A program made the translations under genes and the position numbers. The notes under the pieces are model-generated. The model was not told where the DNA came from, did not search any database, and saw nothing but the letters and a program-made list of their open reading frames with translations. A DNA stretch of 64,000 nucleotides from Candidatus Pullichristensenella stercorigallinarum. Its GTDB lineage: Bacteria; Bacillota; Clostridia; Christensenellales; Aristaeellaceae. Of the stretch, positions 64 through 60,277 are shown in pieces. The stretch is taken from NCBI GenBank assembly GCA_018712945.1, contig DVFZ01000122.1:25322-89321 (forward strand), written 5' to 3'. Positions within the stretch are counted from its first letter, which is position 1. Every line of letters begins with the position of its first letter.

Positions 64-329
64 GCCTGCCCCGGACGCGAAAGTCCGGGGCAGGCCCAGA
101 ACGCTGCCAAAGCCTGCAAACGCAAAAATTGCCCTGATAAAATAAAAATCAGAGGCAATTTTTGCTTCCTGCGTCAGCTGCGCATGCCCTCTTCGGTCGC
201 TCACGTCCATGTAAGCTCCCCTGTCCGCAAGTTTGCTCCTTTATCTTGCGGGCTTTTGAATCCCTCTGGCAGCCTGTCGGTTTTGCCAATATCCTGGGTC
301 TGCCCCGGACCTTCGCGTCCGGGGCAGAC
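64..329 (+). repeat. Family A structured repeat, copy A1
   Basis: Core GCAAAAATTGCC...GGCAATTTTTGC, CTTACATGGACGTGAG-type stem, GCCTGCAAG-type stem; terminal hairpins at 64-95 and 298-329 (13-bp stems). Confidence 0.85.
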
Positions 330-2649: not shown

Positions 2650-3364
2650 TGCGGCAACTATATTGATCGTTGAGGATGACGAGCGCATCCGCGGCCTGAT
2701 CCGCACCGTGCTTGCCGGCGCGGGCTACGTCACGTTGGAGACGGGCAACGCCACCTCAGCCCTTTCCATGCTGGCCTCGCACCGGCCCGACCTGATGGTT
2801 TTGGATCTGGGCCTTCCCGACCGGGATGGGCAGGAGCTTTTGCGGGAGATACGTTCGTGGTCGAACGTACCGGTGGTGGTAGTTTCCGCGCGTGGGCAGG
2901 AGCGCGACAAGGTGCGCGCCCTGGATGGCGGCGCGGACGACTATATTACCAAGCCCTTTGGCACCGAGGAACTGCTCGCACGCATCCGTGCCGCCCTGCG
3001 CCATGGCCAGCGCATGGCCGAGGGGGAAAAGAGCGTTTACAACATTGGCGGTTTGCAGGTGGATACCGAGCGCCGCATTGTGCGCGTGGATGGCCGCGAG
3101 GTGCATCTGACGCAAATCGAATACAAAATCGTCACCCTGCTGTGCCGCAACGCCGGCAAGGTGCTTACGCACGACAGCATGATTCGCGAGGTATGGGGCC
3201 CGTTTTCCAACTGCGATACCCAGCTTTTGCGCGTAAACATGGCCAATATCCGCCGCAAAATCGAAAAAGACCCCGCCATGCCCGAATACATCCTCACCGA
3301 AATCGGCGTAGGCTACCGCATGGCTGAGGTCGGCAGTGCCGACGGCCAGAGCTGCCGCGAGTGA
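2642..3364 (+). CDS. Response regulator, OmpR/KdpE-like
   Basis: REC domain (VEDDERIRGLI, MVLDLGLPDRDG, KPFGTEELLARIRAALR) plus winged-helix DNA-binding domain; overlaps kinase stop. Confidence 0.88.
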   Translation: MRNAATILIVEDDERIRGLIRTVLAGAGYVTLETGNATSALSMLASHRPDLMVLDLGLPDRDGQELLREIRSWSNVPVVVVSARGQERDKVRALDGGADDYITKPFGTEELLARIRAALRHGQRMAEGEKSVYNIGGLQVDTERRIVRVDGREVHLTQIEYKIVTLLCRNAGKVLTHDSMIREVWGPFSNCDTQLLRVNMANIRRKIEKDPAMPEYILTEIGVGYRMAEVGSADGQSCRE

Positions 3365-3786
3365 GCGGCGCGCGCCCGCCCCACGAGCAGGGGGACGGGC
3401 GCGCTTTGTTGCGTTTCGATTGATGCGGGAGTACGAATACGCGCCGGGCGGCTCACGCGCAGGAGCCGCCCGGCTTGCGTTGCAGGGTTGCGATTCTTGC
3501 GCGGCAGCCAATGGGATTCTTAAGGGATAAATCCCTTAAGCGGGTGCGGGCAGGGCCCGCCGTAGCCCCGCCGGAACCATGGCCCTGCGCGTGTGGCCAA
3601 GCGGCAAAACGCCCCGCCCGCCGTTCCCCGCGCGCCCGGCAACAGCCAGCTTGCACGAGGAAGAATTTTGCCCGCCGCCATCCCAAAACCGGGCGCGCGC
3701 CTTCCCGAAGCGCCCTTGCCGCAGGCAAGCAGCGTCGCCCCGCACCCACGCAGCGCCCCTTGCCCCAGCGGGGCAAGGCAGCGCCA
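3329..3786 (+). repeat. Family B multi-hairpin repeat, copy B1 (long)
   Basis: GTCGGCAGTGCCGAC ... GCGCGCCCG...CGGGCGCGCTTTGTTGCGTTT ... CTTAAGGGATAAATCCCTTAAG ... CTTGCCCCAGCGGGGCAAG. Confidence 0.85.
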
Positions 3787-3855
3787 ACCGAAGAAATCCG
3801 CACCCTAGCGGCCAACGATATCTTCCCAAGGCCGGAGTGGCCGTGATGGTGCGCC

Positions 3856-5883: not shown

Positions 5884-6333
5884 TCGCTGTGCCTGCAATT
5901 TGCGGCTGTTTATGCAAGTTCAGTCTTTGTCGCGGGTCTGGCTTGGCTGGCACATTGATTTTGTCTGCGGGTGTGGGATGCCGCGAAATTTGACGAAGGA
6001 ACGCTCCCGCGGCGTTTTGCCGGGCTAGGGAGGTGGCGTTTCAATGCGGTTGCGCCGCTGGTGATGCGTAGGGGGAGGACGATGCTGCTTGTCCCGCTGG
6101 GACAAGGGCGCTTCGGGCGGACGCGCTTGGTTTGGGGCGGGGCAGGAGAACGCCTTATGCGTGCGGGTTGACCTATTATCGGATGCACGGGGAACGGTGA
6201 GGGCAGATGGGCTTTTCCACCATGCGCGCAAGATTGCAGTTGCGGCGGGAGTGGAATATATTTGTACGAGTGATTTGGCCTCTGAGGACTTGTTTTGCTG
6301 CCGCGTGGAAATCGCTATGTTGTGGCGAAGATT

Positions 6334-6794
6334 GGCGCTGCCTTGCCCTGGTGGGGCAAGGGACGCTGCGTGGGTGCGGGGCGACGCTGCTTGCCTGCGG
6401 CAAGGGCGCTTCGGGAAGGCGCGCGCCCGATTTTGGGATGGCGGCGGTGGGCGAAATTTTCTCACGTGCAAGCTGGCTGTTGCCGGGCGCGCGGGGAACG
6501 GCGGGCGGAGTGTTTTGCCGCTTAGCCACACGCGCAGGGTCATGGTTCCGGCGGGGCTACGGCGGGCCCTGCCCGCACCCGCTTAAGGGACTTGTCCCTT
6601 AAGAATCCCATTGGCTGCCGCGCAAGAATCGCAACCCTGCAACGCAAGCCGGGCGGCTCCTGCTCCTGAGCCGCCCGGCGGTTGTACGTACTCCCGCATC
6701 AATCGAAACGCAACAAAGCGCGCCCGCCCCCTACTCGTGGGGCGGGCGCGCGTCGCTCCAACGCGGCAGCGCTGGCAGCCGGCACCGCCGGCCG
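6334..6794 (-). repeat. Family B multi-hairpin repeat, copy B2 (long, inverted)
   Basis: Near-complete reverse complement of B1 ending 2 nt from the carB-dapF stop codon. Confidence 0.87.
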
Positions 6795-33858: not shown

Positions 33859-34883
33859 CCACACAGGCGCACAAGGGCAAGCGATCCCTGACAAAGACGC
33901 TGGGCAATTACAGCTTTATCCTCATCTTTGCCTTTATCCTCATTGCCTACCTCATCATCAACGCCGGCGCAACTACGCTCAACGGCGTGATGAACATCCT
34001 CCGCCACTCGGCCGTAGTGGGCATCATGGCCTTTGGCATGGGCCTTGTTATCATCACCGGCGGCATCGACCTGTCCGTGGGTTCAATGCTTTCGCTGATT
34101 GGCGGATTGGGCGTGGTGGCGTTCAACGCCTCCAACTCCGTGATACTTACGTTTTTGACGGTCGTGCTGGTCGGCTGTGTGCTGGGCTTTTTCAACGGCA
34201 TACTCATCGGCAAGGTGAAAATGCCGCCGTTCATCGTCACGCTGGCCACCATGCTGATTTACCGCTCCGTGGCGCAGTATTACCTGCGCACGCTGCGCCT
34301 GTCCATCTACAACATGGATGCCACGCTTTCGGCCTTTGATTCGTTCTACGACTTCGGCCAGTACAAAGTATTCGGCGTGATCCCGATGGCGGGCGTAATC
34401 ATGATCCTTGTCACGGTCATCATGGTGTTTGTCTCCACCTGCACAAAGTACGGCAAGAGCGTATACGCCGTGGGCAGCAACGAAAAGGCGGCGCGGCTGG
34501 CCGGTATCAACGTGGAATGGACGCATGTTTCCGTTTATACCATTACTGGCGCGCTGTGCGGCATCAGCGGCTTTATGTGGTTGGCCATGAACGGCTCGGT
34601 AGACCCGGCCACCATCGGCCAGAGCAACGAAATGTATGCCATTGCCGCGGTGGTTATCGGCGGCATCAGCATGAGCGGCGGCAAGGGCAAGCTGCTGGGC
34701 GTGCTGTTCGGCGCCATGAGCTACACCATCATTGATAAGATCATTTCCTCTCTGGGACTGGACGCTCTCATCAATGATACCATCAAGGGTTCCATTCTGC
34801 TGTTGGCGGTATTTGTGCAAATCGCCATTCCCGCCATTCGCAGCAAGTTCCAGCGCGTAAAGCCGGCCGGCAGTGCCGGCTGA
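33855..34883 (+). CDS. Sugar ABC transporter permease (RbsC type)
   Basis: GMGLVIITGGIDLSVGSMLSLIGGL; YAVGSNEKAARLAGINV; C-terminal AGSAG encoded by repeat B3. Confidence 0.92.
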   Translation: MTTQAHKGKRSLTKTLGNYSFILIFAFILIAYLIINAGATTLNGVMNILRHSAVVGIMAFGMGLVIITGGIDLSVGSMLSLIGGLGVVAFNASNSVILTFLTVVLVGCVLGFFNGILIGKVKMPPFIVTLATMLIYRSVAQYYLRTLRLSIYNMDATLSAFDSFYDFGQYKVFGVIPMAGVIMILVTVIMVFVSTCTKYGKSVYAVGSNEKAARLAGINVEWTHVSVYTITGALCGISGFMWLAMNGSVDPATIGQSNEMYAIAAVVIGGISMSGGKGKLLGVLFGAMSYTIIDKIISSLGLDALINDTIKGSILLLAVFVQIAIPAIRSKFQRVKPAGSAG

Positions 34884-35526
34884 CAGAGCTGCCGCTCGTG
34901 AGTGTCGAACCCCTGCCCCACGAGTAGAGGGCAGGGGTTCTTTGTTGCGTTTTGGATTGGGAGAGAGTGCGAAGCGCGCCGGACGGCCCATGAGCAGGGG
35001 CCATCCGGCTGTCGTTGTAACATCGGTGTGCCTTGCGGCAGCAAATGGGATTCTCAAGGAGGCCGGCAGTGCCGGCTGACAGAGCTGCCGCTCGTGAGCG
35101 GCGAACCCCTGCCCCACGAGTAGAGGGCAGGGGTTCTTTGTTGCGTTTTGGGTTGGGAGAGAGTGCGAAGCGCGCCGGACGGCCCACGAGCAGGGGCCGC
35201 CCGGCTGTCGTTGTAACATCAGTGTGCCTCGCGGCAGCAAATGGGATTCTCAAGGGACTTGTCCCTTGAGCGGGTGCGGGCAGAGTCCGCCGTAGCCCCG
35301 CCGGAGGCATGGCCTTGCTCGGATGGAAAGTAGAGTTCTACGCCCGCCGTTCTCTGGCGCGTCTGACAACAGGCTGGCCTGAGCGCACAAGTATTTCGCC
35401 CACTACCAACATACCGATCAAAATCCGACGCGCCATTTCCCACAGCGCCCTTGCCCCGATGGGGCAAGCAGCGCCACTCCGCACCTCCACAGCGTCCCTT
35501 GCCCCATCGGGGCAAGGCAGCGTCAT
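34866..35526 (+). repeat. Family B repeat, copy B3 (two tandem core units, then long tail)
   Basis: GCCGGCAGTGCCGGCTGACAGAGCTGCCGCTCGTGAG occurs at 34866 and again at 35062 (196-bp period). Confidence 0.87.
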
Positions 35527-36649: not shown

Positions 36650-36651
36650 AG

Positions 36652-36910
36652 GGCGGCAGTGCCGCCAGCCAGAGCTGCCGCGTTTGTGTGATCGCCCCTC
36701 TGCCCCGTGGATTATGGGGCAGGGGGGCTTTGTTGCGTTTCTGGTTGGGGAAGAGTGCGAAGCGCACTGGGCGGCTCAGGAGCAGGAGCCGTCCGGCGTG
36801 TGTTCGTACTCTCATATCAATCGGAACGCAACAAAACACGCCTGCCCCCTACTCGTGGGGCAGGCGTGTGTCGCTCCAACGCAGCAGCGCTGTCAGCCGG
36901 CACTGCCGGC
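36652..36910. repeat. Family B repeat, copy B4 (two half-units facing each other between convergent genes)
   Basis: GGCGGCAGTGCCGCC...GGGGCAGGGGGGCTTTGTTGCGTTT from the left; reverse complement ...AAACGCAACAAAACACGCCTGCCCC...GCCGGCACTGCCGGC from the right. Confidence 0.85.
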
Positions 36911-37639
36911 CGCACCGACGTATTCCTCCAGGGTGATGTCCTGGTTGCGGATTTGTGTGGCCGCGCTTACGCCTACATAGCGGTAGTGCCACGGCTCGTA
37001 GCTGATGCCGGTGATATCCGCTTTGTTGGCGGGATAGCGCTGGATAAAGCCGTATTCGTGCGCATGCTCGCGCAGCCAGGCGTATTGCTCGGTGCTTTCA
37101 AAGCCCTCGTTGGTCTCGGCGGTCACATCGAAGCACAGGCCGGTCTGGTGCTCGCTGGCTCCGGGCGGCTGGGCGTAGCCCTCCTCGCTCTCGGCATATA
37201 CTTCGGCCTGACGGTCGTAGTCACGGTAGCCGCTGGTGACGATAAAGCCGTTCACGCCGTCGGCCTCGGCGGCGGCGAACATCGCCTCCATGGCCTCGTA
37301 GGTTTCGCGGGTGACGTAGATATCGCTTCTCGCCAGCCGGAAGGAGTGCCGCTGCTCGTAGAGGTTCACCAATCCCTCGGGCACATAATCAGAACTCAAA
37401 AGGTTATCTTCGTTGACCAGCAGGATGCCGCCCTTGTAGCGGGTGGAATCCACGCCGAAATGCCAGCCCAGCGCAAAACTGCCCGCCAACAGCGCGAGCA
37501 TCGCCGCCGCTGCCGCCAGTTTTTGCCATAGCGGACGCGCCCGCTTTCGCGAATGGCGCGATGTGGGAGCGGATGCCTCCGCGGCCAGACGCCGTGCGCG
37601 GCGGGAACCGGGGTTTGTCTGTGTAGGCGCCGTCGCCAT
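36893..37639 (-). CDS. D-alanyl-D-alanine carboxypeptidase, VanY/peptidase M15 type
   Basis: FIVTSGYRDYDRQAEVY, GASEHQTGLCFDVTAE, EPWHYRYVG; N-terminal TM anchor; C-terminal GAAGSAG encoded by repeat B4. Confidence 0.88.
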   Translation of the reverse strand: MATAPTQTNPGSRRARRLAAEASAPTSRHSRKRARPLWQKLAAAAAMLALLAGSFALGWHFGVDSTRYKGGILLVNEDNLLSSDYVPEGLVNLYEQRHSFRLARSDIYVTRETYEAMEAMFAAAEADGVNGFIVTSGYRDYDRQAEVYAESEEGYAQPPGASEHQTGLCFDVTAETNEGFESTEQYAWLREHAHEYGFIQRYPANKADITGISYEPWHYRYVGVSAATQIRNQDITLEEYVGAAGSAG

Positions 37640-44668: not shown

Positions 44669-44889
44669 GGAAGAAACCTCCTTATGGCTGATTCGAAGGC
44701 GTGCGGGACGCAGCCCGTCCGCCCATCACTTCATTTTACAGCAAAACGTCAAAGAAAGCAAGGGCTGCTTTGCGAAAAGTGGAGGTTTATTACGGCGATG
44801 CAAAAACTGCCAGCATTCCGGCAGGCATTGGGCTTTTCATACGCTTTCAGCATGCGTCAAGGACATAAAAGGCGTGCGCTGCCCAACCC

Positions 44890-45093
44890 GAGCAAGGGCA
44901 ACGCCCTTGCGAATCCCATTTTCCGCCGCGCAACCTTGCAACGAAAGCCGGGCGGCCCCTGCTCGTGGGCCGCCCGGCGGGCTTCGCACTTTCCCGCAGT
45001 CCAAAACGCAACAAAGAACCCCTGCCCCATTCCTGTCGGGGCAGGGGTTCGGCCGCCCAGTTCGCGGCAGCGCTGGCCGCCGGCATTGCCGGC
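44890..45093 (-). repeat. Family B repeat, copy B5 (core unit, inverted)
   Basis: GCAAGGGCAACGCCCTTGC ... AAACGCAACAAAGAACCCCTGCCCC...GGGGCAGGGG ... GCCGGCATTGCCGGC abutting permease stop. Confidence 0.85.
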
Positions 45094-46071
45094 CTAACGG
45101 CCGGAGGCGCGCTTGCGGCTGCGCAGGAAGTCCATGTATACGGCGCCGAGGATGACGACACCCTTGATGATGTATTGCCAGTCGGAGTTGACGCCCATCA
45201 GGTTCAGGCCGTTGTCGAGGATGCCGATGATCAGCGCGCCAATCAGCGTGCCGCCCAGACGGCCGGAACCGCCGGACATCGAAGTGCCGCCCACAACCAC
45301 GGCGGCGATGGCGTCCATCTCAGCAGATTCGCCGGAGGTGCAGGTGCCCGAGTAGAGGCGGGAAGCGATGGTGATGCCCGCCAGGCCCGCCATCAGGCCG
45401 CTGAAGCTGTAAACGACGAATTTAACCTTCGCCGTGCTGATACCGGAGAACTTGGCGGCAGTGTCGTTGCCGCCCACGGCGTAGATATGGCGGCCCATGC
45501 GCGTGCGGTTGAGGAACAGCACGGCGATGATGAACACCACAAACATCGTCACCACCTGGGTGGGCACGGGGCCGATGTAGCCCGCGCCGAGGAACTTCCA
45601 GGCGTCGGTCATGCAGCGGATGGGCTTGCCGCCCGAGTAGACGTAGGCGATGCCCTTGGCGATGTTCATGGAGGCCAATGTGACGATAAAGGGCGGGATT
45701 TGCGTCTTGGCGATGATGACGCCGTTGAACAGGCCGAACACCAGGCCCGAGAGGATGCCCACGAGGATGCCGACGATCTCCGGCATGCCCCACCAGACGA
45801 CGGCCGCCGCGCCCAGCACGCCGGACATGGCGATGATGGAGCCGACCGACAGGTCGATGCCGCCGAGGATAATGACCATGGTCATGCCGCAGGCCAGCAG
45901 CAGGTTCGGCGCGCTCTGGCGCAGAACGTTGAAGATGTTGCGCTGGGTGAGGAAAGTCTCGTGCGTCACCGGGTAGACGTACAGAAAGAGGATCATCACC
46001 GCCAGCGCGCAGAGGATGCCCAGATTGTCCTTAAAATACCGCTTGATGCCTTTTCCCAATCTCTCAACCAT
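45094..46071 (-). CDS. Sugar ABC transporter permease (RbsC type)
   Basis: GMTMVIILGGIDLSVGSIIAMSGVLG; YAVGGNDTAAKFSGIS. Confidence 0.92.
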   Translation of the reverse strand: MVERLGKGIKRYFKDNLGILCALAVMILFLYVYPVTHETFLTQRNIFNVLRQSAPNLLLACGMTMVIILGGIDLSVGSIIAMSGVLGAAAVVWWGMPEIVGILVGILSGLVFGLFNGVIIAKTQIPPFIVTLASMNIAKGIAYVYSGGKPIRCMTDAWKFLGAGYIGPVPTQVVTMFVVFIIAVLFLNRTRMGRHIYAVGGNDTAAKFSGISTAKVKFVVYSFSGLMAGLAGITIASRLYSGTCTSGESAEMDAIAAVVVGGTSMSGGSGRLGGTLIGALIIGILDNGLNLMGVNSDWQYIIKGVVILGAVYMDFLRSRKRASGR

Positions 46072-48889: not shown

Positions 48890-49187
48890 ACCAAATGCAA
48901 TGAATGAAAGATTTTTTGCGTTGACAAAATATATATTTGATAAAATGAAGAAAAAACGGTGAAGAAATTGCCTGCTAGTTATCGTTGGCGCTGTGGACAA
49001 CAACCGCGGGAGCGAGAAACGGACGGCTTTGAGAGGCGGCGCGCCGGGCATAATCGCCGTTCCAACAAATTCCCCGGGAGGATTCCTGAATCGCGTTTCT
49101 CCCCGCGGGCTTGCAATATCTTGCAATATAACATACATTCCGTGGCCGGGTGCGAAAAGGAGGGCTTTCAAGGGAAAGCATAAAATT

Positions 49188-49446
49188 GTCCCCGCGCGCA
49201 TAAGGCACGCGGGGACGCAGGATGTTGACAAAGTCAACAGACTGCCAGAGGGATGAGAAAGCCTGCAAGGCAAGGAAGCAAACTTGCAGGCAAGGGAGCT
49301 TACATGGACGTAAGTGACCGCGGGCTGCATGTGCAGCTGACGCAGGAAACAAAAATTGCCTCTGATTCTCTTTGTTCAGGGCAATTTTTGCGTTTGCAGG
49401 TTTTGTCAGCGCTCTGTGTCCCCGCGCGCATAAAGCACGCGGGGAC
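49188..49446 (-). repeat. Family A structured repeat, copy A3 (inverted relative to A1/A2/A4)
   Basis: Reverse-complement core; bounded by GTCCCCGCGCGCATAAGGCACGCGGGGAC and GTCCCCGCGCGCATAAAGCACGCGGGGAC. Confidence 0.87.
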
Positions 49447-49468
49447 GCGCAATGGTCCAAAGGCCCGC

Positions 49469-57097: not shown

Positions 57098-57350
57098 GCG
57101 GCGGACGCATATACGTCCGCCGCCCAAAGCGCTGATAAACCCCGCAAACGCAAAAATTGCCCTGATCAAAGAGAAATCAGAGGCAATTTTTGCTTCCTGC
57201 GTCAGCTGCACATGCAGCCTGCGGTCACTTACGTCCATGTAAGCTCCCTTGTCTGCAAGTTTGCTTCCTTGTCTTGTAGGCTTTCTCATCCCTCTGGCAG
57301 TCTGTTGACTTTGTCAACATCCTGAACGGCGGACGCATATGCGTCCGCCG
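57098..57350 (+). repeat. Family A structured repeat, copy A4
   Basis: Same core; bounded by GCGGCGGACGCATATACGTCCGCCGC and CGGCGGACGCATATGCGTCCGCCG. Confidence 0.87.
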
Positions 57351-57377
57351 CCATTTTTATGGGGTATGGGGTTTTGC

Positions 57378-59376: not shown

Positions 59377-59469
59377 CGACCACGGTTCATAGTGTACTCA
59401 TTTTCCCCAGTTTTGGCAATACCTAAACCGTTTAATTTTTTGTTAAATATTTTCTTTTGCCCGCCGGGA

Positions 59470-59812
59470 TGCTATAATGGAAGCAAAAACGCGCGGAATT
59501 GCAGGCCCTGGCCGCCTTGCAAAAAAATTCGCAGAACGGCCTGTAAAACCGGGCCCGGCAACATGTGCGGCGGCCAGCAGGGATTTGATCGCAGGCAGGT
59601 TTACTTGCCGGAGAGAAAATCCCTGCCTTGCAAAATTCGCTTGTGCCGCAAAGCGGCGCGAGAGAATTTTGGAGAGGGTAGCAAGGCGCAGAATCCGCAG
59701 GATTCTGCGGTTTCGCCAAAGGCGAAACTGCCACGCCTCAAATTGAAAATTTGAGGCGCGGCACCCGGCGGGGGAGATACGCCCCCGGCCGCCTCCGCGC
59801 AGCGGAGGCTGT
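59470..59812 (+). repeat. Hairpin-train element preceding dCMP deaminase
   Basis: Consecutive stems GCAGGGATTT/AAATCCCTGC, CAAAATTC/GAATTTTG, CGCAGAATCC-gca-GGATTCTGCG, GTTTCGCC-aaa-GGCGAAAC, CGCCTCAAATT-gaa-AATTTGAGGCG, GCCTCCGC-gca-GCGGAGGC. Confidence 0.65.
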
Positions 59813-60277
59813 ATGGATAAGTGGGATAAGCGGTTTATGGAAGTGGCGGCACTGATTGCCACGTGGGCCAGTTGCTATCAACCCGAGCGCAAAATCGGCG
59901 CGGTTATCGTCAAAAACAAGCGCATACTCACCACCGGCTACAACGGCGCGCCCGCGGGCATACGCACCTGCGTGGAGCGCGGCGAGTGCATGCGCAAAAA
60001 GCAGGGCATCGCCTCGGGCACGCGGCACGAATTGTGCTACGCCATCCACGCCGAGCAAAACGCCATCATCCAGGCGGCGAAGCTGGGCGTGTCCATACAG
60101 GACGCCACGCTGTACTGCACCCATCAGCCCTGCGTGATCTGCGCGAAGATGATCGTCAACGCCGGCATTTCCCGCGTGGTCTACCGCGAGGGCTACCCGG
60201 ACGAATTTGCCCGCCAGATGCTCTTGGAGGGCGGTGTGAAACTGGAACGGTACGAGGAGGAAGAACATGAACAGTGA
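59813..60277 (+). CDS. dCMP deaminase (ComEB-like)
   Basis: MDKWDKRFMEVAALIATWASCYQPERKIGAVIVKNKRILTTGYNG; HAEQNAIIQAA; CTHQPCVICAKMIVNAGI. Confidence 0.92.
   Translation: MDKWDKRFMEVAALIATWASCYQPERKIGAVIVKNKRILTTGYNGAPAGIRTCVERGECMRKKQGIASGTRHELCYAIHAEQNAIIQAAKLGVSIQDATLYCTHQPCVICAKMIVNAGISRVVYREGYPDEFARQMLLEGGVKLERYEEEEHEQ

Follow-up and report, generated by a model that had tools for sequence, protein, structure and literature searches.

The train of hairpins directly upstream of the dCMP deaminase gene of Candidatus Pullichristensenella stercorigallinarum is, with high probability, an old copy, decayed at its ends, of a MITE-like, non-autonomous element (family A) that targets hairpins, duplicates them as a whole, and was inserted ancestrally into the deaminase leader. 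The train spans positions 59470–59812 of the 64 000-nt stretch of DNA analysed here (the window). MITEs, as well as the targeting of palindromes by IS1182-family insertion sequences (IS), are already known; new are the hairpin-module body of the element and the duplication of whole hairpins.

Hairpin modules of the train and the family A repeat

By direct reading and by inverted-repeat listing we recovered all of the stems named in the original prediction. Compared with 100 dinucleotide shuffles, the train folds with z-scores of −10.2 and −9.9 on the two strands, and 0 shuffles were as good. The repeat proper, a decayed copy of the modular hairpin MITE on the plus strand, occupies about 59512–59793 and not the whole span of the train; its left end is degenerate, its right terminal palindrome is lost, and the family A composite could be aligned to it at 59562–59793 and 59521–59548. 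On the plus strand it contains the nested stems of modules C (59577–59626, covarying helices 1–2) and D (59631–59671, covarying helices 3–4), followed by the hairpins E1 (CGCAGAATCC-gca-GGATTCTGCG, 59687–59709), E2 (GTTTCGCC-aaa-GGCGAAAC, 59710–59728) and E3 (TGCCACGCCTCAAATT-gaa-AATTTGAGGCGCGGCA, 59729–59763, covarying helix 9), all five being inverted repeats. The CGCCTCAAATT stem, which is part of E3, has longer arms than originally named (59729–59744/59748–59763), and hairpin F (GGGGG...CCCCC, 59768–59787, plus strand, covarying helix 10) comes in addition to the stems first described.

The suggestion that the train might belong to a dispersed repeat family was borne out, with about 35 loci in the host genome and further copies in relatives. 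Searching the host genome (2.96 Mb draft, 130 contigs) with 59440–59830 gave 34 matches; the closest other copy, on contig C32, is 93% identical over 273 nt, and the next best matches reach 80–87%. A composite of the fullest copies found 66 matches, which we read as the roughly 35 loci. Nine of the 100 genomes searched (host included) match family A, the strong ones besides the host being G002, of the same genus, and G022 and G052, of the same family. When 84 980 species genomes were scanned for exact patterns, with records of the host genome possibly omitted, family A turned up solely in Candidatus Faecivicinus avistercoris; its presence among relatives is patchy.

Intact copies, i.e. those with both ends present, measure 215–416 nt, start with CAGACTGTCAAAA, carry TTTTGACAAGCTG at the right and finish in a palindrome CAGCTTGTCAAAAATACTTTTTTGACAAGCTG (11 such palindromes were found); in abbreviated form the ends read CAG..TGTCAAAA. 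The end motif CAGNNTGTCAAAA occurs 27 times, as against 0 occurrences of a reversed control. Among the matches to the end pattern, those on C37 and C97 resemble chance matches, and that on C110 marks an additional element whose internal modules differ. Between the ends, hairpin modules are variably present, absent or swapped from copy to copy. The intact copies contain no gene and are too short for one of transposase size. Family A shows several features of MITEs: it is short, multicopy and devoid of a transposase gene, with terminal inverted repeats and, in intact copies, a target-site duplication. In an alignment of the main modules from 24 copies, 27 of the 73 base pairs change on both sides yet stay paired; none of 500 shuffles reached this number, and structures slid by 1–3 columns gave 11–14. 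As judged from this alignment, the covariation shows that the hairpins have been maintained as hairpins. An RNA function does not follow from it by itself: repair of one arm from the other, or a role at the DNA level, would leave the same pattern.

The family A copy in the deaminase leader

The dCMP/cytidine deaminase-family gene (59813–60277, plus strand; PF00383, 3.6e-27) has orthologues that are 97% identical in the genus. Its probable promoter contains the −10 box TATAAT, which had been placed at about 59471 and is indeed present, its exact position being 59473–59478 (plus strand); the box is found at the same place in G002 and in the congener G003, reads TTATAATG in the congener G006, and is not among the sites listed by a stricter promoter scan. 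The promoter sequence is the same in close congeners, and the family A copy lies between this genus-conserved promoter and the start codon. Counted from about 7 nt past the −10 box, the predicted leader measures 330 nt in the host and 272 nt in G002, which carries the repeat at the same site, as against 50 nt in G003 and 19 nt in G006; these two and G004 have short leaders without the repeat. Of the structured 5′ leader originally proposed, the position between promoter and start codon thus stands, but not its conservation: three congeners are without the element, and modules of the window copy have been lost or replaced in the orthologous copy of G002. Neither terminator-like sites (GC stem plus U-tract; 0 in 59380–59830) nor promoters within the train on the plus strand were found. 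The proposal of an independent ncRNA finds no support, and an Rfam scan of the train returned no family at E ≤ 1.

As had been noted, the last hairpin (GCCTCCGC/GCGGAGGC, 59791–59809, plus strand) lies close to the start codon; 3 nt separate it from the ATG at 59813, and the Shine-Dalgarno (SD) sequence (GGAGG at 59804–59808) is part of it. Because a similar hairpin is present in G002 and a shorter one in the element-less G003, it is probably native to the leader of the host gene and lies outside the repeat. Two right-truncated family A copies stop right before an SD-containing hairpin, namely the one in the window (hairpin region 59791–59812) and L026 (about 1500, corresponding to C106:6800), where the hairpin reads CCTCC-gaa-GGAGG-atATATG.

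The deaminase genes are 92.4% identical at the DNA level between the host and G002, 92.2% between the host and G003 and 89.7% between G002 and G003, and these values are compatible with more than one branching order. The G003 leader contains a GC-rich stretch like the last hairpin of the element; it could, given this resemblance, be a deletion derivative and not a never-occupied site. A target duplication of the window copy was sought and not found; a 12-nt repeat (CCCTGGCCGCCT/CCCCGGCCGCCT) tried as a candidate was rejected, since the conserved ...CCGTCCGCC end of the element itself accounts for it. Since the copy has no recognisable target duplication and a degenerate left end, its mode of insertion is inferred from its relatives.

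According to our predictions, the SD sequence is fully paired in the window leader (P(unpaired) = 0) and mostly free in G002. The insertion probably lengthened the leader incidentally; the element may lower translation of the deaminase, and the paired SD is a possible cost of the insertion. It seems unlikely that the element edge and the SD hairpin were co-opted after insertion as a translational control element, with the remainder as filler: the predicted pairing in the window copy and the second right-truncated copy next to an SD-containing hairpin would fit, but these are two cases only, the G002 leader leaves its SD accessible in the prediction, and the shorter SD hairpin of G003 exists without any element. 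Very unlikely, in our judgement, is a conserved cis-regulatory leader, riboswitch-like or protein-bound, that controls the deaminase gene. The location of the hairpins between conserved promoter and start codon, their strong fold, the covariation across copies and the predicted pairing of the SD speak for it; however, the same sequence stands at about 35 unrelated places, it is absent from the deaminase leaders of G003, G004 and G006, the orthologous copy of G002 has lost or replaced modules, and there is no match in Rfam. The train is the relic of a mobile element within the leader of a gene, and no dedicated regulatory RNA.

Duplicated target hairpins and the IS1182-family IS

In many copies the same complete hairpin is found on either side of the element. 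Pooling families A and B (a second repeat, see below) and the IS, the similarity score of an element's own two flanks is at least 12 for 10 of 18 elements, compared with 2 of 306 mismatched pairs. The duplicated stretch is 18–37 nt long and folds as a single hairpin with 0–2 unpaired bases per edge; at most 0.6% of shuffles are as stable. As an exception, the duplication of the family A copy at C104:30538 is 10 bp long and no hairpin, and in several copies no duplication is seen. The duplications in Ca. Faecivicinus are likewise hairpins (31 nt at L091, 23 nt at L096 and 18 nt at L097).

Between recF and typA, the congener G006 has one hairpin where the host has hairpin, element and hairpin; at gyrB, G001 has one terminator-like hairpin. 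The tkt site is occupied by a family A copy in G002 and by another element in G003, which also has one at gyrB, and this occupancy of tkt and gyrB marks terminator-like hairpins as recurrent targets. To judge by their sequences, the target hairpins mostly resemble intrinsic terminators. Upstream of gyrB in G003 (L198, G003:C43:60900–61800), one terminator-like hairpin is present three times alongside this different element; the single hairpin of G001 at the gyrB site is unrelated to that hairpin.

Family B shows whole-hairpin duplication in the window, the same target mode as that of the IS. One copy (about 57127–57324 within 57099–57352, no strand assigned) lies downstream of groEL, with its hairpin duplicated at 57099–57124/57327–57352; a second (49218–49416 within 49187–49448, minus strand) is flanked by a duplicated 32-nt hairpin at 49187–49218/49417–49448; and a third (about 94–293 within 66–327, plus strand) lies between hairpins at 66–93 and about 297–327, the second with an inverted loop. 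Such mutually inverted loops, as if one hairpin had been flipped, are seen both at this third copy and at C19/C57 (L021, L020). At two places, C19/C57 and C34, family B sits inside hairpin E2 of a family A copy. Family A copies in the C104:19101 region (L152) and on C34 (L150) are joined to family B ends or have been invaded by them, which suggests that the two families recombine or land in one another. A third dispersed repeat family occurs in the window in both orientations (3328–3787, 6332–6793, 34865–35059, 35061–35525, 36651–36912 and 44871–45095), with 70–96% identity between its copies there.

The host has an IS1182-family transposase (NF033551 at 442 bits, the cut-off being 270; also PF05598 and PF13751), in the form of one full-length gene and several fragments, mostly at contig edges. 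The IS combines an IS1182-type DDE transposase with a palindromic target, as reported for some members of the family. Our set of IS ends (CAGACCATTGACAAAC) comprises 11 left and 12 right ones, and 21 of these 23 adjoin a stem of at least 8 pairs (the 99th percentile of shuffles being 6). Five of the 11 left ends pair with exactly one right end each, on other contigs, and share with it an identical or nearly identical hairpin of 20–35 nt at the junction, with a gap of 0–1 nt. Given the abutting stems and these left-right matches, the IS most likely duplicates whole hairpins as well. The paired contig ends (C33-C6, C60-C21, C79-C27, C97-C30 and C108-C79) could be used to scaffold the draft genome.

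The ends of family A resemble the IS1182 ends without matching them exactly. No transposase with family A ends was found in the host, where the one complete IS1182 gene that was recovered has slightly different ends. A PF13751 profile search in G002, G003, G022, G052 and G021 gave no match, despite the many family A copies in G002 and G022; PF01609 has one match in G022. Because the ends differ and G002 and G022 are without a PF13751 match, we can only infer that an IS1182-type transposase moves family A. REP/BIME elements are intergenic palindromes in mosaic combinations; each is a single short palindrome and is not known to have terminal inverted repeats or to make target duplications. Family A is likewise palindrome-rich, intergenic and modular, but it is highly improbable that family A is a REP/BIME-like repeat dispersed by a TnpA-REP (HUH) transposase, or a passive hairpin array, since it has the terminal inverted repeats and long target duplications expected of DDE elements, whereas HUH elements are not known to make target duplications.

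Proposed mechanism and relation to known systems

For the hairpin-targeting MITE that we favour, we propose that an IS1182-type or related transposase recognises a stem-loop extruded as a cruciform; the element would be joined to each strand at the hairpin's 5′ foot, and gap repair would then copy the entire hairpin to both sides. The window insertion would probably have taken place in the common ancestor with G002, between the promoter and the SD sequence of the deaminase gene, resulting in a predicted leader of about 330 nt where G003 and G006 have roughly 20–50 nt. No selected role is evident for the element at this place, where it may reduce translation. More tentatively, hairpin trains as such might be the accumulated product of repeated hairpin-guided transposition, in which nested landing and loss leave tandem hairpins behind. 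The elements land on hairpins, duplicate them and consist of them, and so would feed on each other; the two family B insertions in E2, the modules that differ between copies and the three hairpin copies at gyrB of G003 all point in this direction, although we consider this extension possible and not probable.

Members of the IS1182 family can have long, variable direct repeats. IS1272, which belongs to this family, inserts at stem-loops, many of them terminators, without sequence preference; the stem-loop is lost in the process, and no duplication arises (PMC4923244, PMC5678879). Stem-loop targets are thus common to both systems, the host genome has a family member by NF033551, and the family A ends are similar to those of this member. 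Unlike in IS1272, where the stem-loop is deleted, the entire stem-loop is duplicated here: in the five joined IS copies and in many MITE copies the hairpin is present on both sides, and family A is without a transposase. The whole-hairpin duplication fits pathway b in Fig 13 of PMC5678879, drawn there as a possibility: if the strands were joined at the hairpin's 5′ feet, a second copy of the complete stem-loop would result. The IS1182-derived ISMac2 MITEs of Methanosarcina acetivorans (160–169 bp, with direct repeats of 4 or 0 bp according to the last column of the table in PMC3852290) are, like family A, short non-autonomous derivatives linked to IS1182 elements, whereas family A measures 215–416 nt, is built from hairpin modules and has hairpin duplications of 18–37 nt. 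Pneumococcal BOX elements are described, in the parts of PMC3049150 considered here, as modular, highly folded intergenic repeats of variable size that can sit in transcripts; their modules include tandem boxB arrays, those parts report no whole-hairpin target duplication, and the likeness drawn here is one of description. A literature search for terminator duplication by insertion sequences, with the main IS-family review outside its scope, found no report.

That the length of the duplication tracks the target hairpin (18–37 nt, with edges within 0–2 nt) argues strongly, at the level of sequence, for a transposase that senses DNA shape (an extruded hairpin) and cuts at the feet of the hairpin. 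For IS1272, whole-hairpin duplication had been sketched as one possible outcome without being observed. Its wider interest lies in hairpin-length target duplication being common to MITEs and to the IS1182-family IS of the same genome. Elements that duplicate hairpins offer a ready-made test system for cruciform-guided integration, and the copying of terminator-like hairpins to both sides could explain how they spread beside genes with little harm. Mobile hairpin elements also account for a class of strong signals of the 'structured leader' kind, which arise in unannotated gut Clostridia and could be taken, wrongly, for new RNAs.
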